Shown: positions 14,985 to 26,663 of the stretch, in pieces | How positions within the stretch are numbered: the stretch's first letter is position 1 | Layout of the letters: the number at the start of each line of letters is the position of its first letter | Assembly (NCBI GenBank): GCA_015523725.1 | Contig: WAJV01000034.1 | Coordinates: 1-55,333, forward strand | Length of the DNA: 55,333 nucleotides | Source of the DNA: Candidatus Geothermarchaeota archaeon | GTDB lineage: Archaea; Thermoproteota; Nitrososphaeria; Geothermarchaeales; JDFR-13 | Direction: 5' to 3' | Position numbers and translations under genes: made by a program | The notes under the pieces: model-generated | Databases searched by the model: none | Told to the model about the DNA's origin: nothing | Seen by the model: the letters and a program-made list of their open reading frames with translations, nothing else

Positions 14985-15917
14985 ATGGACGTGGTCTTGG
15001 ATATGGATCCTGGAGTCGATGACGCGGTTGCACTTATGTTGGCTTTGAATAGTGAGGAGCTGAATATAGTTGGGATAACTACAACATATGGTAATGTACC
15101 TGTTGATATCGCGACTAAGAACGTTTTCCGTGTATTGTCTCTCGCTAATAGGATTGATGTACCTGTTTATGTAGGTTCATATAGACCAATACTTAGTTTC
15201 GCTGGTTATGCTGAGGATATCCATGGTGAAGATGGATTGGGTGGTGTCTCGATCCCCTATGTTGATATATCACCTAAGGGATCTGCAGTTCCCTTCCTCA
15301 TGCATGCTGCTAGGGAGTATGAAGATTTAACTATAGTCTCCACCGGCCCTTTGACAAATATTGCTTTAGCCATTTTAGTGGATAGGGAGTTCCCTAGACA
15401 CGTAGGGAGATTGATTCATATGGGTGGCGCGTATGGATTGACTGACTATGGTTATGGAAATGTTGGTCCAGTTAATGAATTTAACATTTATAGCGATCCC
15501 CATGCTGCTAAAGTAGTTTTCGAGAGTGATCTAGATATTTTCAGCATTGGTCTCGATGTAACCATGAATCCATCGGCCATGTTTAATGAGCATGAGGTGA
15601 GGTCGATTGGTAAAAAGGGTGGAGAATTTGGTAGGTATATTCCACATATGGTTAGGAGGATTATTGAGAAGGAGGGCGCTGTTGCTTTTCACGACGCTGT
15701 TCCAGTAGCATATTTGGTAGATAATTCTCTGTTAAAGTTTAGGGATCTGTATGTATCTATAGAGGTTTCTGGCGTGGAGGCTTATGGAGCTATGATCGTA
15801 GATAGGAGGAATTGGTTACCGAGTGAGCTTAGGCAAGGGAGTTTAGTTAAGGTTGCTTATTGGATAGATGGTGATAAGTTTAAGAGGATTCTTTGGGATA
15901 GGGTGTTTATGCATTAG
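14985..15917 (+). CDS. Inosine/uridine-preferring nucleoside hydrolase
   Basis: The 310-residue protein begins MDVVLDMDPGVDDAVALMLAL, the calcium-binding DxDxGxDD motif of the nucleoside hydrolase superfamily. It also has the IVGITTTYGN, LTIVSTGPLTNIALAI and GAYG...NEFNIYSDPHAAKVVF blocks. It hydrolyses ribonucleosides to free base and ribose, which fits the nucleoside ABC transporter further along the window. ATG 14985 lies twelve bases after GGTG. The gene ends in a 4-base overlap with the convergent polymerase gene. Confidence 0.92.
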   Translation: MDVVLDMDPGVDDAVALMLALNSEELNIVGITTTYGNVPVDIATKNVFRVLSLANRIDVPVYVGSYRPILSFAGYAEDIHGEDGLGGVSIPYVDISPKGSAVPFLMHAAREYEDLTIVSTGPLTNIALAILVDREFPRHVGRLIHMGGAYGLTDYGYGNVGPVNEFNIYSDPHAAKVVFESDLDIFSIGLDVTMNPSAMFNEHEVRSIGKKGGEFGRYIPHMVRRIIEKEGAVAFHDAVPVAYLVDNSLLKFRDLYVSIEVSGVEAYGAMIVDRRNWLPSELRQGSLVKVAYWIDGDKFKRILWDRVFMH

Positions 15918-17983
15918 CTTATACCTATGAAATTCTCCAGACTGATTAATCTATTTTCGGCATACTCTATTGGTAGCGTATCGATGCTCTTGTTCAACCT
16001 ATTTATATAGTAATTCTTACTGTATCCCATATCTTCACTCCAGTATTCTATTGGGATGGCCTCCCTCTTACTATCCACTATAAATTTTACTACTTCTCCT
16101 TCCCTTAACTTAAATCGTTTTACAGCGTCTATAAATAGGTTATTACCTCTATATTCATACCATCTTCTAGTTATTCTCTTTGTTATTAATAGGTCTTTGA
16201 TGGGGGCTTCTCCATTTGCTATGATGGATATGTAATTAGAGTGGAGGCTTAATACTTTCTTTAATAGGGTTCTCATATCTTCTATATCTGTAGCCTTTGA
16301 AAGTATGTCTATAGCTTCTTTCTGGAATCTTTTTATTATTGGTGGTGTATCCCTCCTAACTAGTTCAATGCCCTTGACTTTTATCTCTCCATTATATCCT
16401 ACACCATAATATCTGTTTGATTGGGCTATAGGCGGTCTACTCATATTTTTTGGTAGATATAGCCATTTATAATGTATATCCAGTTCCATTCTTATACCTA
16501 TTTCCCTAGATATTTCTCTACAGAGTTTAATATAATCTTCTCTTGTGCCTCCTTCTTTATAGACCCATATACTATCTACTATTGCATGTATTACTTTATA
16601 GCCGTGTTTCTTGGCTATATTTATTGTTTTATTGAGGATATATCTGGCATAGGCTGTAACCGATTCGTATGCTTCTATTTTTCCGAATCTAGCGTTTCTA
16701 TATCCAAGGTATCCAAAGCATGCTACTAGTATCCATTTTATGGCATTCTGTCTAGCATAATATATTGGATCACGAGTTTCTTTAGCCAGGTCTTTCAAGA
16801 CCACTCTTCTCCTTATAAGTTTATTTAGAACCATTGGGACTATGCCTTCAACATCCATACATATTTTATGGATCCCTATCGGTGTGACTATATATTCTTT
16901 ACACCCTTCTCTATTAACCGTTTCATTACTGATGTTATACTTTACTATTATGTTTGGGTATAGGCTTGTGAAGTCGCATTGGGCTATATTCCAGTAGAGG
17001 CCTGGTGTGGGTATGTAATATAGTCCGCCTCTATCGATCTTATATAAATTAGTTAGTTTCTTAGGCTTCTCTATATCAACCCTATACTCAGGTATAGCCA
17101 TATGTCTTTTAAGTGCCTCTACCGCCTCTATAGTAGTCAATATTTTTCCTATACTGTATTTGGATACCCTGCCTAGGTCGGTGTAGGAGAGACGACTTAA
17201 TTCGATTAATCCATGGTATTCACTTGGTTCTAATACTGTTGATCCATAGTTTATATATACTCTCCTACGTTTGTGTAGTACCTCTTTTACTCCATCCTTC
17301 TTGACTAGCCATTTATGGAGTATTGGATTTGTATACTCGATTACATCTGGGTCATAGTAGTTTATATATTCAATCAAAGTATCTATGTTCCTGACTTCCA
17401 ATTTATCTTGGTTGCCATTTACATATATAATATATTTCTCGGGTTCCTTCCTCCATGGATTACTGTTTTCTCCGTACCAGTTGAATCCCCTTATTAATAT
17501 CCTCTTGAAGGGTGGGGGTATATAGTTTATTGATTCTCTATCCTCATATTCATATGCATCTATAAATCCACCATCTATATGTATATTTGCTAATAGGCTT
17601 GGTGGAACACCTATATCCAATAATATTTTTTGGGGGATTGCTGGTATTGTATTATATAGTTTGATATGTGTATAATAACTGTTTCTTAGATATCTAACGA
17701 ATTTATAGTATTCACTTATTCCAGAGAATCTTATTACATATATATTTCTATCCTTATTATACCATGGAGGGAGTCTCCAATTCTCTTTATATACATCTAA
17801 TATATCGTCTTTGAATCCCTTGATTAATCGTATAGCCTCCTCATCATCTCCATGAATATATGCTTTTGGAGTATAGTATATTGGTATTTCCCTATATCTA
17901 TGATTTATATCTTTAATTACTATTAATGCCCTGTTTAGCCTTGTATCTATATCTATTTTAAGTATCCATCCTTTGATATCCAT
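15914..17983 (-). CDS. polB2: PolB2-like family B DNA polymerase with altered active sites
   Basis: The 689-residue protein is a short family B polymerase. Motif A is intact (QCDFTSLYPNIIVKYN, Asp about 337). Motif B appears as RQNAIKWILVACFGYLGY (411-428). Motif C reads HAIVDSIWV (466-474) instead of YGDTDSxxV, so one of the two catalytic aspartates is missing. The 3'-5' exonuclease DxE motif is also not recognisable. This pattern fits the crenarchaeal PolB2 (Dpo2) group, associated with DNA damage tolerance. The preceding small gene overlaps it by 31 bases, suggesting cotranscription. Assignment as PolB2 rather than another divergent PolB is inference. Confidence 0.83.
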   Translation of the reverse strand: MDIKGWILKIDIDTRLNRALIVIKDINHRYREIPIYYTPKAYIHGDDEEAIRLIKGFKDDILDVYKENWRLPPWYNKDRNIYVIRFSGISEYYKFVRYLRNSYYTHIKLYNTIPAIPQKILLDIGVPPSLLANIHIDGGFIDAYEYEDRESINYIPPPFKRILIRGFNWYGENSNPWRKEPEKYIIYVNGNQDKLEVRNIDTLIEYINYYDPDVIEYTNPILHKWLVKKDGVKEVLHKRRRVYINYGSTVLEPSEYHGLIELSRLSYTDLGRVSKYSIGKILTTIEAVEALKRHMAIPEYRVDIEKPKKLTNLYKIDRGGLYYIPTPGLYWNIAQCDFTSLYPNIIVKYNISNETVNREGCKEYIVTPIGIHKICMDVEGIVPMVLNKLIRRRVVLKDLAKETRDPIYYARQNAIKWILVACFGYLGYRNARFGKIEAYESVTAYARYILNKTINIAKKHGYKVIHAIVDSIWVYKEGGTREDYIKLCREISREIGIRMELDIHYKWLYLPKNMSRPPIAQSNRYYGVGYNGEIKVKGIELVRRDTPPIIKRFQKEAIDILSKATDIEDMRTLLKKVLSLHSNYISIIANGEAPIKDLLITKRITRRWYEYRGNNLFIDAVKRFKLREGEVVKFIVDSKREAIPIEYWSEDMGYSKNYYINRLNKSIDTLPIEYAENRLISLENFIGIS

Positions 17984-20147: not shown

Positions 20148-20162
20148 GTGGGGTGGTAGATT

Positions 20163-22928
20163 ATTGAATATAGGGTTAGGATTGGTCTTGAGGTTCATGT
20201 ACCTGTTAATACGGTAGAATCGAAATTATTCTGTGGATGTAGGAATCCATATCGTCACAAGCCTAATAAGCCTAATGAATATGTATGCCCTATATGTTTA
20301 GGTCTACCTGGTGCTTTACCTAGGCCTAATAAAGATGTGCTTATTAAGGCAATTAGAGCTGCAAAGGCTTTGCATTGTAGCGTTAGTGACTCCATCCAGT
20401 TTTATAGGAAGCATTATTTTTATCCCGATCTTCCAAAGGGTTACCAGATAACACAGTTTTTGGGTGGTGGATTCTTACCTATAGGTGTCGATGGGTATTT
20501 AGATTTGGATGATGGTAAGCGGATTCGGATTAAGAGGATTCATGTAGAAGAAGATCCCGCGAGATTGGTGCATCCATCGGGGTTAGGTGAATCTAATAGG
20601 GTCTTAGTGGACTATAATAGATCTGGGGCCCCACTTATTGAGATCGTTACTGAGCCAGATATAGGTTCGCCTGAGGAGGCCCGTGCATTTTTGGATAAGT
20701 TGAGATATATGTTGGAGGCGGTCGGAGTTCTCGATCCATCTATTGATTATGGTCTCAAAACCGATGCTAATGTATCCTTGGGTGAGGGTTCTAGGGTAGA
20801 GATTAAGAATGTAGGATCTGCTAGGGATGTCGAGAAGGCTCTTTCATTTGAGATTATGCGGATGCGGAGATATCTGGATGAGGGTGTTGAGGTGGAGAGG
20901 GAGACTCGTCATTGGGATGAGAGGCGTAGAGTGACGGTCTCAATTAGGGAGAAGGAATATGAGGAGGAGTATAGATACTTTCCTGACCCAAATATTCCAC
21001 CAATAGATTTGAGAACATTGGTTGATGAGGCGTTAAGTGGTATGCCTAAACTAGTCGATGAAGTTGTTCGCGAATTGACCGATACGTATTTGATTAAGCC
21101 TGAGTATGCTAATGTTATTGGTAGGGATCGGGATTTATTGGCTCTCTTTAGAATGCTTTCTCTAGAGCCTAGTAAAGTTAGTGTAAATAGGTTTCTGGCT
21201 AAATTATTGGTCAATGAGGGTAAGTATTTGTTGAAGAGGAACTTGGTTAGATTGGATGAGTTGGCGAATATATTACGGAGCATTATTCAGATGGTGATTG
21301 AGGGTATCCTTAGTGAGGGGGAGGCTAGGAAGAGGCTGCTCCGTAGGTATGAGGCTAGGGAGGGTTTGAAGAAGGTCGAGCCTGGAGTATTGGATAAGTA
21401 TATCAAGGATGTTCTTGCGGAGATAGATGTATCCGGTGGTAATCCCAGGATTAGGGATTATGTTTCTGGCTTGGTTATTAATAGGTTAAGGGAAGATGGT
21501 TTTGCTGTGGATCCGAAATTGGTTAGTAATAGGGTTATGGAGTTGATGGAGCCGCTTTTATCGAGTGGCAGGAAGCCTAGTGTTGAGGTTGATAGGACTT
21601 ATCTTCGGCCTGTAGAGTATAAGGAGAGTTTGGCGGACAAGGTTGTCAATATTAAGGATGTTTTTGAGAAGGTTGGTGAGGAACTTATTATTTCTGGTTG
21701 GCTCGAGAGTAAGATGCATGTCGGTGGGAAATTATTCATTATATTGAGGGATTGGAGTGGAAGGATTCAGTGTATCAGTGAACGTGGCGATGATTTCTTC
21801 GACATGCTGAGGCGTCTTCATCGAGAGTCTTTCCTCATAGTGGGCGGTGTAGTAAGGAGAGATAAGAGGGCTCCGGGAGGCGCCGAGCTTAGATTGTCCT
21901 GGGTTAAACATGTGGGTGGTTATGAGCCGCCTCCACTCACTCTATTGGATTTGGCTAGATCAGGTATAGAGACGAGGATAAGATATCGTTACTTGGATAT
22001 TAGGAGTATGAGAAATCGAAGTATTTTTAGTTTCAGAGCAAAATTATTAGTGGCTATTAGAGATTTCTTTAAAGAGAGGGGTTTTACCGAGATAAATACA
22101 CCAAAAATTATCACGACTGCCACCGAGGGGGGAGCCGAGTTATTTCCATTGCTCTTCTATGGTAGGGAGGCTTTCTTAGCTCAGAGTCCACAACTCTATA
22201 AGCAGATGGCTCTCAACATGTTTAGGAAAGTGTATGAGATAGATAGTTATTATAGGGCGCAGAAATTTGATACTCCTAGGCATCTAGCTGAGTTTTGGTC
22301 GATTGATGTCGAGGCATCACTATATACTCTAGATGATTTATTGTCTCTCGTCGAGGATTTATGCATATATTGCGTTGATTATTTAAGAGATGAGGCGAGG
22401 GAGGAGTTGGATATCCTTGGGAGGGATCTACCTAGGTTATTTAAGCCTTTTCCCAGGATAACCTATTTAGATGCATTGGATCTCCTTCGAAGTAAAGGTG
22501 TTAACATAGTTTTTGGTGAGGATCTCGGAGCGTCGGAGCTTAAGTTATTAGACGTTTTTGGTGATAAACCATATTTCATTACATATTGGCCTAGGGACAT
22601 TAGGGCTTTTTACTATAAGGTTAATGAGGATGATAATAGATTGACTAATAGTTTTGATTTCATGTGGCCATTGGAGAGAGGTTATCCATTGGAGCTAGCT
22701 AGTGGTGGTGAGAGGATTAATGATCCTAATTTATTGATGGAGAATATGAGGAGGAAGGGGTTGTTCCCGGAGGCTTACGAATGGTATATAAATATGTTTA
22801 GATATGGTATGCCTCCCCATGGAGGCTTCGGTTTAGGTCTTGATAGATTATTAATGGCTTTATTACAGCTTAATACCGTTTTAGAGGGGGTTTTCTCCCC
22901 TAGAACACCTAAATATAGTGAACCTTAG
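20163..22928 (+). CDS. gatB-aspS: GatB-AspRS fusion: amidotransferase subunit B joined to aspartyl-tRNA synthetase
   Basis: A 921-residue two-enzyme fusion. Residues 1 to about 485 are complete GatB: the GLEVHV motif with His12, zinc cysteines C24/C26/C42/C45, the RIHVEEDPARLVHP block near 126-138, then helical and YqeY-like tail domains. Residues about 494-583 are the AspRS anticodon-binding OB fold (IISGWLESKMHVGGK...). Residues about 598-921 are the class II catalytic domain (ATEGGAELFP, QSPQLYKQ, DTPRHLAEFWSIDVE, motif 3 GFGLGLDR). Asp-tRNA-Asn would be made and amidated to Asn-tRNA-Asn by one protein with GatA and GatC. The in-frame stop at 20157 leaves only ATT 20160 or 20163 as starts; 20163 lies eleven bases after GGTG. 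GTG 20337 would delete His12 and the zinc site. Confidence 0.93.
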   Translation: MEYRVRIGLEVHVPVNTVESKLFCGCRNPYRHKPNKPNEYVCPICLGLPGALPRPNKDVLIKAIRAAKALHCSVSDSIQFYRKHYFYPDLPKGYQITQFLGGGFLPIGVDGYLDLDDGKRIRIKRIHVEEDPARLVHPSGLGESNRVLVDYNRSGAPLIEIVTEPDIGSPEEARAFLDKLRYMLEAVGVLDPSIDYGLKTDANVSLGEGSRVEIKNVGSARDVEKALSFEIMRMRRYLDEGVEVERETRHWDERRRVTVSIREKEYEEEYRYFPDPNIPPIDLRTLVDEALSGMPKLVDEVVRELTDTYLIKPEYANVIGRDRDLLALFRMLSLEPSKVSVNRFLAKLLVNEGKYLLKRNLVRLDELANILRSIIQMVIEGILSEGEARKRLLRRYEAREGLKKVEPGVLDKYIKDVLAEIDVSGGNPRIRDYVSGLVINRLREDGFAVDPKLVSNRVMELMEPLLSSGRKPSVEVDRTYLRPVEYKESLADKVVNIKDVFEKVGEELIISGWLESKMHVGGKLFIILRDWSGRIQCISERGDDFFDMLRRLHRESFLIVGGVVRRDKRAPGGAELRLSWVKHVGGYEPPPLTLLDLARSGIETRIRYRYLDIRSMRNRSIFSFRAKLLVAIRDFFKERGFTEINTPKIITTATEGGAELFPLLFYGREAFLAQSPQLYKQMALNMFRKVYEIDSYYRAQKFDTPRHLAEFWSIDVEASLYTLDDLLSLVEDLCIYCVDYLRDEAREELDILGRDLPRLFKPFPRITYLDALDLLRSKGVNIVFGEDLGASELKLLDVFGDKPYFITYWPRDIRAFYYKVNEDDNRLTNSFDFMWPLERGYPLELASGGERINDPNLLMENMRRKGLFPEAYEWYINMFRYGMPPHGGFGLGLDRLLMALLQLNTVLEGVFSPRTPKYSEP

Positions 22929-22939
22929 GTGATTTTAGG

Positions 22940-24358
22940 TTGAAGGGACCACTGTCTTCATTAGATGTTGAGGCTAGAAAGGATCTTGTCGAGAGGCAGT
23001 ATAACCTCCTCCGGGAGACTAAAGATAAATTTAATGCATTTATTCACTTGAGGGAATTCGAGTCTATTATAGATGAGGTTGAGGGGAAGGAAGGTCCTTT
23101 AACTGGCTTTTTAATACCTGTCAAAGATAATATTGCTGTCGCTGGGCTCCCCAATACCTGTGGAAGTAGAATGTTGGAGAATTATGTCTCACCATATGAT
23201 GCACATGTCATTAATTTGTTGAAGAGATTGGGTGGTGTTGTGGTTGGCAAGACTAATATGGATGAGTTTGCTATGGGTAATTCTGGTGAGACTAGTTATT
23301 TTGGGCCGACGTTGAATCCATGGGATAGGGATAGAGTCCCAGGTGGGAGTAGTAGTGGTAGTGCGGTGGCTGTTGCCTGGGATGGTTTTGCATCATTAGG
23401 GAGTGATACTGGTGGTAGTGTTAGGTTGCCCGCTGCATACACACATATATTGGGTTTGAAACCTACTTATGGAACCCTGAGTAGATATGGATTAATATCA
23501 TATGCCGATAGTCTGGAGCAGATAGGCTTATTCACTAGATTCTCTTTGGATATGGCATATCTATTATACTATCTTATGGAATATGATCCAAGGGATATGA
23601 CGATGTATTCTGGAAATGTGAGAGATGTTGTGAGGAAGAACTTGAAAATGGTATTTGAAGGCAAGTACAGTGTTGATGGTTTAAAAATGGCGTACTCGAA
23701 TCAATTGATTACTCTGTGTGAGGAACCCGTTCAGAAGAAGGTGTTCGATGCAATCGATAAGATGGAGGGCCTTGGTGTTAAGGTTTTTGATGTGGATATG
23801 GATTTCGTTGAGCCATCACTCTCAATTTACTACATAATCGCTATGGTTGAGGCTAGCAGTAACTTGGCGAGATATAGTGGAGAAAATTATGGGTATCGTG
23901 TTGATGCCGGTAGTTATTGGGAATCGGTGCGAAAGACACGTAGCATTGGTTTCGGTGATGAGGTGAAGCGTAGAATTATAATGGGTACTTATGCTTCTAG
24001 TAAGGGGTATGAGGGGAAGTACTATATTAGGGCTTTAAAGGGGAGGAGGTGGGTAAAGGAGAGATTGAATAAATTGTTGGGTTTGTATGATTTTCTGGTT
24101 TTACCTGTGTCTCCTAGATTACCTCCTAGATTGGGTGAGGCTATTGGACCAGATGGCTACATCATTGATATTTTTACAGTTGTACCTAATTTAACTGGTA
24201 ACCCTGCATTAACTATACCTATTGGCTTGGTGGATGGTTTACCTACTGGTATTCAATTAATTGGTAATTACTTTTCAGAACCTGATTTAATCTTTTTAGG
24301 TTATTTGATGGAGGGAAAAATATATGATCCTTATCTGTCTCCGAGGGGTGTTGATTGA
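22940..24358 (+). CDS. gatA: Asp-tRNA(Asn)/Glu-tRNA(Gln) amidotransferase subunit A
   Basis: The 472-residue amidase-signature enzyme releases ammonia from glutamine or asparagine for the GatB site. The Ser-cisSer-Lys triad is visible: Lys62 in IPVKDN, the serine-rich PGGSSSGSAVAV (134-145) and nucleophile Ser160 in GSDTGGSVRLP. The C-terminal TGNPALTIPIGLVDGLPTGIQLIG is typical. It starts at TTG 22940, twelve bases after GGTG, eleven bases beyond the fusion gene stop. It follows gatB-aspS and overlaps gatC by one base, giving an operon in which every enzyme of the Asn route is linked. Confidence 0.95.
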   Translation: MKGPLSSLDVEARKDLVERQYNLLRETKDKFNAFIHLREFESIIDEVEGKEGPLTGFLIPVKDNIAVAGLPNTCGSRMLENYVSPYDAHVINLLKRLGGVVVGKTNMDEFAMGNSGETSYFGPTLNPWDRDRVPGGSSSGSAVAVAWDGFASLGSDTGGSVRLPAAYTHILGLKPTYGTLSRYGLISYADSLEQIGLFTRFSLDMAYLLYYLMEYDPRDMTMYSGNVRDVVRKNLKMVFEGKYSVDGLKMAYSNQLITLCEEPVQKKVFDAIDKMEGLGVKVFDVDMDFVEPSLSIYYIIAMVEASSNLARYSGENYGYRVDAGSYWESVRKTRSIGFGDEVKRRIIMGTYASSKGYEGKYYIRALKGRRWVKERLNKLLGLYDFLVLPVSPRLPPRLGEAIGPDGYIIDIFTVVPNLTGNPALTIPIGLVDGLPTGIQLIGNYFSEPDLIFLGYLMEGKIYDPYLSPRGVD

Positions 24359-24651
24359 TGGATTTGACTACTGATATTCGTAGAATGATGGAGATAAGTT
24401 TAGTTGGTGGTGACCCCCAATCTTTTTTGGAGGATGTGAAGAAGATCCTTGATTTATTCGATAAATTAGATAGTTTCGAGGATAAATTCAGTGAGGTTGA
24501 ACCATTATATCATCCACTTGAATATAGAGGTTCACCTAGGCAGGATAAAGTGATTGATGTTTATGTTGATGTATCGAAGTTAACGGATTATGTTGAGGAT
24601 GGTTACGTCTATCTCCCTCCAATAAAAGGGGTTAAAAGGTTGACTAGATAG
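24358..24651 (+). CDS. gatC: Asp-tRNA(Asn)/Glu-tRNA(Gln) amidotransferase subunit C
   Basis: The 97-residue protein fits GatC, the small chain that wraps around GatA and stabilises the GatCAB complex. The pattern is loose but recognisable: an N-terminal helical segment (DIRRMMEISLVGGDPQSFLEDVKKILDLFDKLDSF) followed by VEPLYHPLEYRG, the counterpart of the family VxPLxHPLE block, and a Tyr-rich C-terminus (VYLPPIKGVKR). ATG 24358 shares a base with the gatA stop (TGATG); TTG 24355 is also possible. It ends in an 8-base overlap with a convergent regulator. Confidence 0.85.
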   Translation: MDLTTDIRRMMEISLVGGDPQSFLEDVKKILDLFDKLDSFEDKFSEVEPLYHPLEYRGSPRQDKVIDVYVDVSKLTDYVEDGYVYLPPIKGVKRLTR

Positions 24652-25129
24652 TTTCCTCAGGCCTCTTTAGGAAGCCCTTAACTTTAGCCTGTGTTATAAC
24701 ATTGAGTATTAGTCTTGTGTGTGTGCGTTCAATATATCTATGTTCATTTATTTCTTTTATAAAATCATCTAACTCCCATCGGCTCTTGAATAAAGCAAAT
24801 ATTGTAATATCATAATCTCCAGTAATGTCATAGACAGCGTAAACATTATCATATTTACTTAATTCATGTTCAACTTGCCTAATTTTACCTTTTGATACTT
24901 TGATATCGATCAATACTGGAAATATATATCCTAGCTTTTCTAGGTTTAACTTTATTGTATATCCCTCTATTATGCCGAGTTCCTCCAATCTCTTTATCCT
25001 AGCTTGCACGGTACCAGCGGATAACCCCAGTCTTCTAGCTATTTCCCTAGCCGAGACCCTTGAGTTGTTAATCAATATTGAGAGTATCTGTATATCTCTA
25101 TAATCGACAAACGTATGTTTTGCCACCAT
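24644..25129 (-). CDS. Lrp/AsnC-family transcriptional regulator
   Basis: The 161-residue protein has an N-terminal winged HTH (residues about 8-55, DYRDIQILSILINNSRVSAREIARRLGLSAGTVQARIKRLEELGI) and a C-terminal RAM effector domain (VYAVYDITGDYDITIFALFKS). It is divergent from glnA over a 130-base gap, so glutamine synthetase is a plausible target, perhaps with glutamine or another amino acid as ligand. ATG 25129 lies eleven bases after GGTG. It is separate in sequence from the second Lrp gene at 35690. Confidence 0.9.
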   Translation of the reverse strand: MVAKHTFVDYRDIQILSILINNSRVSAREIARRLGLSAGTVQARIKRLEELGIIEGYTIKLNLEKLGYIFPVLIDIKVSKGKIRQVEHELSKYDNVYAVYDITGDYDITIFALFKSRWELDDFIKEINEHRYIERTHTRLILNVITQAKVKGFLKRPEETI

Positions 25130-25259: not shown

Positions 25260-26663
25260 ATGGCCTCCATGTTAGATAAGATACGTGAATTTAATGTGGA
25301 TTGGGTTGAGCTTCACTTTACTGATTTATATGGAAGGTTGAAGATGACGATGGTTCCGGCCGACACCATTGATGAAGACTCGATAAAAGGCGGTATTCCA
25401 AAGCTTGATGGAAGCAGTGTGACGGGGTTCGGGCGTATAGAATTTAGTGACTTAAATTTACTGCCTGATGAGGATACCTTCGTTATATTACCTTGGAGGG
25501 TGGATGGAGACGTAGTGGGGCGGGTGTATAATTATGTTTATAAGTCGCTGGGACTCGGTCCGTTGGAGGTTGATCCGCGTCAAGTAGCTAAGAAATTGGT
25601 TGAATATTTATCTAATAAGGGTTTCAAGGCTTACTCGGGATTAGAGGCTGAGTATTATGTCCTTAAGGATGTTAAGGTCGATGTTTCTCAGCCATATTTT
25701 AAGATGTCCTACATGATTGATTCGCCTGAGGCACCTTGGAATCAGGATGGATACCCGACTTCCTTTAAGGATGGTTATTACACTTCCCTACATACAGATT
25801 CTATATATGAATATAGGTATAAAGTGGCTTCTCTACTAAAAAAGAGTTTTGGTGTTGATTCGACTGCCCACCATCATGAGGTGGGGGTTGTGGCTCAGAT
25901 GGAGATTGATATTAAGCATAGTGATCCACTGAGGACGGCTGATAATTATATGACTCTTAAGTATGTCGCTAGGAAGGTAGCTCAGGATTATGGGTTATTA
26001 GCAACGTTTATGCCTAAGCCGATATTTGGTGATAATGGCTCGGGTCTCCATACACATATAAGTATTTGGAGGGATAATGATAATCTATTCTATGATCCAG
26101 ACGATGAATATGCCGAGCTTAGTCAATTTGCTAGATATTTTATAGGCGGCTTATTAGAACATGGTAGAAGTCTTTCAGCCATAGTTTCTCCAACTGTGAA
26201 TAGCTATAAGAGACTCGTTCCTGGTTATGAGGCACCTATATTTCTTGCTTGGTCGAGGGGGAATAGAAGTAGTGCGGTTAGGGTTCCAGTGTATCGTAGA
26301 GGGAGGCCTTGGGAGAAGAGGATAGAGTATAGGCCTCCTGATCCTTTGGCTAATCCATATCTAGCAATACCTGCAATAATCATGGCTGGTCTCGATGGAG
26401 TTAAAAAGAAGATCGAGCCTGGGGACCCCGTCGATAAAGATATTTACCATTTAAGTGATTCTGAGTTGAGGAAGTATAATATCAGGAGCCTCCCTAGAGA
26501 TTTATATGAAGCGGTTGAGGAACTGGGTTCCGACAATGATTATTTACGGCCAGTCTTTAACTCTGAGGTCCTAGATACTTTTATGGAGATTAAGAGGAGA
26601 GAGTTTCTAGAGCTTAATCAATACCCTACTCCTGTTGAGCTGCATAGATATTTCTCTTATTAA
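25260..26663 (+). CDS. glnA: Glutamine synthetase, type I
   Basis: The 467-residue enzyme joins ammonia to glutamate using ATP. The N-terminal beta-grasp (VDWVELHFTDLYGRLKMTMVP) and catalytic domain motifs are present: AEYYVLKD, HHEVGVVAQMEID, DNGSGLHTHIS, NSYKRLVPGYEAP and NRSSAVRVP. I see no clear GlnA adenylylation tyrosine motif. ATG 25260 lies eleven bases after GGTG; ATG 25269 is an alternative. It is divergent from an Lrp-type regulator. The product also supplies the amide donor for GatA. It ends in a 4-base overlap with the next gene. Confidence 0.95.
   Translation: MASMLDKIREFNVDWVELHFTDLYGRLKMTMVPADTIDEDSIKGGIPKLDGSSVTGFGRIEFSDLNLLPDEDTFVILPWRVDGDVVGRVYNYVYKSLGLGPLEVDPRQVAKKLVEYLSNKGFKAYSGLEAEYYVLKDVKVDVSQPYFKMSYMIDSPEAPWNQDGYPTSFKDGYYTSLHTDSIYEYRYKVASLLKKSFGVDSTAHHHEVGVVAQMEIDIKHSDPLRTADNYMTLKYVARKVAQDYGLLATFMPKPIFGDNGSGLHTHISIWRDNDNLFYDPDDEYAELSQFARYFIGGLLEHGRSLSAIVSPTVNSYKRLVPGYEAPIFLAWSRGNRSSAVRVPVYRRGRPWEKRIEYRPPDPLANPYLAIPAIIMAGLDGVKKKIEPGDPVDKDIYHLSDSELRKYNIRSLPRDLYEAVEELGSDNDYLRPVFNSEVLDTFMEIKRREFLELNQYPTPVELHRYFSY

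Follow-up and report, generated by a model that had tools for sequence, protein, structure and literature searches.

A GatB–AspRS fusion protein in uncultured archaea, a probable covalent Asn-transamidosome

Results

GatB and AspRS are encoded in one reading frame

The window (the whole stretch of DNA analyzed, 55,333 nucleotides) carries a gene in which GatB is joined to an archaeal-type aspartyl-tRNA synthetase (AspRS). The fusion is confirmed: its frame (20163–22928, + strand) encodes 921 amino acids plus a stop codon, is open throughout, scores above NCBIfam cut-offs for both families, and has full-length orthologues. The protein is likely, from its sequence features and genomic setting, to be a covalent Asn-transamidosome of the Thermus/Deinococcus type that makes asparagine on tRNA-Asn.

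The GatB half consists of a catalytic domain (residues 6–284; 20178–21014, +; Pfam GatB_N, E = 6e-89) and a sequence-divergent tail (residues 285–467; 21015–21563, +) that forms helices in the AlphaFold2 model. The tail is under the Pfam GatB_Yqey cut-off, yet profile-profile comparison gave a 99.4% match to the tail of free archaeal GatB over 176 columns. A weakly conserved linker of about 20 residues (468–488; 21564–21626, +) leads to the AspRS half, which contains an anticodon-binding OB fold (residues 506–585 with support from the model; 21678–21917, +; Pfam match at 510–576) and a class II catalytic domain (residues 603–914; 21969–22904, +; Pfam tRNA-synt_2, class II D/K/N, E = 4e-72). 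The window protein exceeds the cut-offs of the GatB families NF004012 (404.9 versus 338 bits) and TIGR00133 (352.1 versus 314.8), and of the aspartate--tRNA(Asn) ligase family NF003483 (417 versus 353 bits). It lies slightly below that of TIGR00458, the archaeal-type AspRS family (365.8 versus 368.4), for which the G002 fusion scores 391.7.

The AlphaFold2 model, built from a 62-row alignment, has a mean pLDDT of 87.9. Its single long low-confidence stretch (residues 469–479) falls between the GatB tail and the anticodon-binding domain, where the linker is predicted to be flexible. The pTM is 0.54: each half is sound, and the relative placement of the halves is not fixed by the model. In Foldseek searches the AspRS part matched 1wyd (TM 0.90) and the GatB part matched 3h0l, 3ip4, and 3kfu; no chain with both GatB and AspRS was among the 50 matches listed. 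The frame, the family assignments, and the model all bear out the sequence-only reading, in which GatB runs into a complete archaeal-type AspRS without a stop.

Upstream of codon 59 the fusion frame has no in-frame ATG, GTG, or TTG. The conserved GatB N terminus (IIEYxVxIGLEVH) nevertheless starts earlier, at ATT ATT immediately 3' of a TAG. On the simplest reading, therefore, translation probably starts at AUU. The putative start and a Shine-Dalgarno-like motif lie together in GGGGTGG-TAG-ATT-ATT (20150–20165, +), which, extended by GAA, is common to the window, G001, G005, and G008, that is, to four species of two genera. Other fusions begin with TTA-ATT-ATT (G002) or GTG (G004, G007, G009, and G010).

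As the same reading had it, GatA and GatC follow the fusion. The gatA gene (22940–24358, +; Pfam and NCBIfam) has intact Lys-Ser-Ser amidase motifs, and gatC (24355–24651, +) is identified by Pfam and conserved position. Next come an Lrp/AsnC-type regulator gene (24644–25129, −; identified by eye) and a glutamine synthetase gene (25260–26663, +; Pfam Gln-synt_C). Both neighbors keep their position beside the operon across the carrier family, which fits a role in nitrogen metabolism without proving it. Elsewhere in the window, a 689-aa protein (15914–17983, −) resembles, by eye, a family-B DNA polymerase; G001 and G002 have an open frame of similar length close to the fusion.

The fusion is present in two archaeal classes

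Eleven genomes of uncultured heat-loving archaea carry the fusion. It is full length in eight, namely the window and seven further assemblies with orthologues of 915–933 aa: G001, G002, G004, G005, G007, and G009 from the window's family, and G218 from another class. In the other three (G006, G008, and G010) it is interrupted solely by contig ends. Ten carriers, among them the single-contig genome of Ca. Geothermarchaeum rappei JdFR-14, belong to Candidatus Geothermarchaeales, and the eleventh is G218. The eight full-length proteins share 50%–73% identity. No additional fusions appeared among the matches listed for 400 genomes of the class and 350 of the phylum; a candidate 819-aa GatB frame in G582 was rejected, the frame being 485 aa with no fusion.

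For the pair G004 and G007, dN/dS is 0.10 in GatB, 0.13 in the linker, and 0.11 in the synthetase (in wider pairs dS is saturated or nearly so). At values of about 0.1, both halves are under purifying selection.

In G218, the fusion, gatA, and gatC stand in unrelated surroundings. Contamination was considered and set aside: threonine synthase on the same contig, a single gene, is 59%–66% identical to homologs in G218's own family and 54%–55% identical to those of Geothermarchaeales, so the contig looks native. Because a carrier of a different class holds the fusion on such a contig, the module has probably moved laterally between archaeal classes. The fused GatBs form one clade in trees (100/100), as do the fused synthetases (100/100), which argues for a single origin followed, probably, by transfer in either direction.

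The synthetase half has an aspartate-type pocket and a divergent position

The aspartate-type pocket residues K680 and D715 are invariant among the fusions (AsnRS has Glu/Leu and Glu at these sites), as are the motif-2 and motif-3 arginines. In the OB fold, position 85 is Pro, as in the Sulfolobus enzyme, and position 26 is Glu versus His in Sulfolobus. We take Pro85 and His26, in this numbering, to mark non-discriminating AspRSs, and position 26 to be the known tRNA-discrimination site. Motif 2 reads YYRAQK rather than FRAE; the Gln (Q700, codon 22260–22262, +) is present in 8/8 full-length fusions, and the other synthetases read at this motif have Glu. This change could alter catalysis. The C terminus, PRTP, is AsnRS-like.

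The fused synthetase falls outside all sampled AspRSs (support 97/96 and 100/99 in two trees) and outside all AsnRSs (100), with long branches in play and with a Thermococcus reference row, numbered by position, included. By this placement it appears to be a third lineage beside AspRS and AsnRS; the long branches make a connection to how AsnRS arose no more than possible. A grouping of the fused synthetases with the second AspRS of sister families f4, f6, f7, and f8 was rejected (p-AU 0.009), and fused GatB did not nest with the GatBs of these families in the tree. Derivation of the fusion from their neighboring aspS2-gatA-gatB genes is unsupported, as the gene order differs.

Carriers also encode separate AspRS and AsnRS

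The window's genome encodes GatE, a separate AspRS with the Asp-type pocket and without Pro85, and a separate AsnRS in which Glu replaces both the pocket Lys and Asp. Thus, of the genes that the sequence-only reading had proposed to look for, aspS and asnS are present, and no second gatB besides the fusion and GatE was found in this 72.7% complete assembly. AsnRS is present in every carrier checked. Separate AspRSs also occur in carriers and, without Pro85, look discriminating. The free AspRS of G218 (L222:296–1636, −) is highly divergent from its own family (branch 1.38).

Sister families f4, f6, f7, and f8 have a free GatB and two AspRSs, the gene for the second lying near gatA and gatB; no AsnRS was found in the genomes checked. 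At the loci L046–L052, L091, L093, and L094, from genomes with two AspRSs and no AsnRS, a Pro85 AspRS adjoins gatA-gatB, as if specialized for tRNA-Asn. Families f2, f3, and f5, together with G003 of the window's own family, have AsnRS and GatE and no GatB.

The tRNA-Asn read in G005 has G1-C72, G73, and anticodon GUU. No second, fusion-specific tRNA-Asn was seen among the G005 loci read, which ARAGORN handles poorly because of many introns. Introns and odd lengths are frequent at the tRNA loci L202–L219 and L163–L170 of this genome, and ARAGORN misnames some of them, for example as tRNA-Pyl.

A short AsnRS-core paralogue (L004:1486–2514, −, and at L156, L157, and L153) is 343–358 aa long and has the motif TKATGACENVATMF. 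The 343-aa protein of L004, from the window's genome, is below the NCBIfam cut-offs for both AsnRS and asparagine synthetase A. A reading of it as an asparagine synthetase is unsupported (121.6 versus 368 bits), and its best solved relative is an AsnRS.

Asparagine synthetase A is absent where the fusion is present

Asparagine synthetase A was found in 0/11 carriers and in 10/10 verified fusion-free genomes with AsnRS, although the carriers are related, so that about two independent contrasts remain, and several of their assemblies are incomplete, which makes gene absences uncertain. In seven of the fusion-free genomes (G003, G011, G012, G014, G021, G075, and G206) a short class II protein scores above the asparagine synthetase A cut-off of NCBIfam, and in three (G122, G175, and G259) it groups with those proteins in the tree. 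The ten span two separate archaeal groups. A Fisher test on raw counts gave p ∼3e-6 with 11/11 fusion-free genomes, including G026, which was left out of the final 10/10 as its short protein is unverified.

AsnB was searched for in G000–G002 and G004–G010. No full-length match was found in G004–G010; G001 and G002 have one, and in G000 an AsnB end lies at a contig edge. These last three, G000–G002, are the genomes of the window's genus, where the asparagine route would thus be redundant. In the carriers as a group, the fusion gene seems to have replaced the ordinary asparagine-making enzyme.

Discussion

tRNA-dependent asparagine synthesis is known in Thermus, Deinococcus, and Bdellovibrio, which also have AsnRS (PMC4206432). 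T. thermophilus and D. radiodurans (PDB 3kfu) possess, in addition to a separate AspRS and an AsnRS, an extra archaeal-type AspRS with GatCAB, and tRNA-Asn is the site of asparagine synthesis there when no asparagine synthetase is present; the carriers have the same set of enzymes, and we propose the same role for theirs. The known Asn-transamidosome is composed of separate chains held together by tRNA (PMC9499178), whereas in the carriers a single chain contains both AspRS and GatB, and the synthetase is of its own lineage. The covalent link covers AspRS and GatB only; GatA, GatC, and tRNA are not in the chain.

A curated AspRS–GatC fusion family (NF009460, PRK12820) likewise joins AspRS to one of the subunits of this amidotransferase, but the partner is GatC, and the window protein falls far below the family's cut-off (97.8 versus 1379 bits). 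We found no earlier description of a GatB–AspRS fusion in the open-access literature searched, in agreement with the sequence-only reading, which knew of none. The sister families resemble the carriers in having the same enzymes as neighbors and a Pro85-type AspRS, but their aspS, gatA, and gatB are separate genes, AsnRS is lacking, and the synthetase is of another lineage. In fusion-free relatives, archaeal asparagine synthetase A (PDB 3p8t, PRK06462) would do the same metabolic job. It descends from the same synthetase family but is tRNA independent and lacks both an OB fold and a GatB part.

In the proposed mechanism, the C-terminal AspRS half would charge tRNA-Asn with aspartate, the acceptor end would pass to the active site of GatB, and ammonia would be released from glutamine by GatA, with the linker tying AspRS permanently to GatB. 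From sequence, we infer the enzyme activity, the use of tRNA-Asn, and channeling, and fixed stoichiometry together with channeling is a plausible consequence of the fusion. Since AspRS binding stabilizes Thermus GatCAB at high temperature (PMC4206432), the permanent tie may be helpful in the heat.

The proposal of a covalent Asn-transamidosome fits all the evidence, but not as the main route to Asn-tRNA: with a separate AsnRS and a discriminating-type AspRS present, the fusion would not be the sole source of Asn-tRNA and is more likely there to make asparagine on tRNA. We counted for this reading the intact GatA motifs, the Asp-type pocket, Pro85, dN/dS, the absence of asparagine synthetase A, and the separate AspRS and AsnRS; against it, AsnB in G000–G002, Glu at position 26, the motif-2 Gln, incomplete assemblies, and the relatedness of the carriers. 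A second Asn-tRNA-Asn route for translation, used for example when free asparagine is short or heat degraded, appears unlikely as the main function. GatCAB and an Asp-type synthetase would yield Asn-tRNA-Asn directly, as the only route in sister families without AsnRS, and the window's genus retains the fusion despite AsnB; however, every carrier checked has AsnRS, and the distribution of the fusion coincides with the lack of asparagine synthetase A. One protein could serve both roles.

Quite improbable, in our estimate, is a synthetase half that no longer aspartylates and serves GatCAB as a tRNA-binding or stabilizing module while the free AspRS charges. The invariant motif-2 Glu-to-Gln change would suit such a module, as would the stabilization of Thermus GatCAB by bound AspRS at high temperature (PMC4206432), but the other active-site residues are invariant, the synthetase matches GatB in its low dN/dS, and the free AspRS has a discriminating look. 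That an assembly error or frameshift joined two genes is almost certainly wrong: although the window's assembly is fragmented, the frame is intact in independent assemblies, once on a single 1.58 Mb contig, with no separating stop or frameshift in any of the full-length versions, so it cannot be put down to chance or to a local assembly error. In the sister families, gatA intervenes between the second AspRS gene and gatB or the two are on different strands, an arrangement from which a single indel could not produce the fusion.

A bolder extension of the asparagine-synthesis reading, in which the fused synthetase represents a third lineage that has survived, a tRNA-Asn-dedicated AspRS near the intermediate ancestral to AsnRS, tied covalently to its amidotransferase in a self-contained asparagine-making module that spreads laterally and displaces asparagine synthetase, is conceivable but doubtful.

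Transamidosomes have been described as separate-chain complexes, in which channeling of Asp-tRNA-Asn is hard to test. A natural single-chain synthetase-amidotransferase would make channeling testable via linker cleavage. The fusion and asparagine synthetase A occur in different genomes, a reciprocal pattern which suggests that a tRNA-bound route can take the place of an amino acid pathway, as seems to have happened in two archaeal classes. The fused synthetase also bears on the origin of AsnRS from AspRS.
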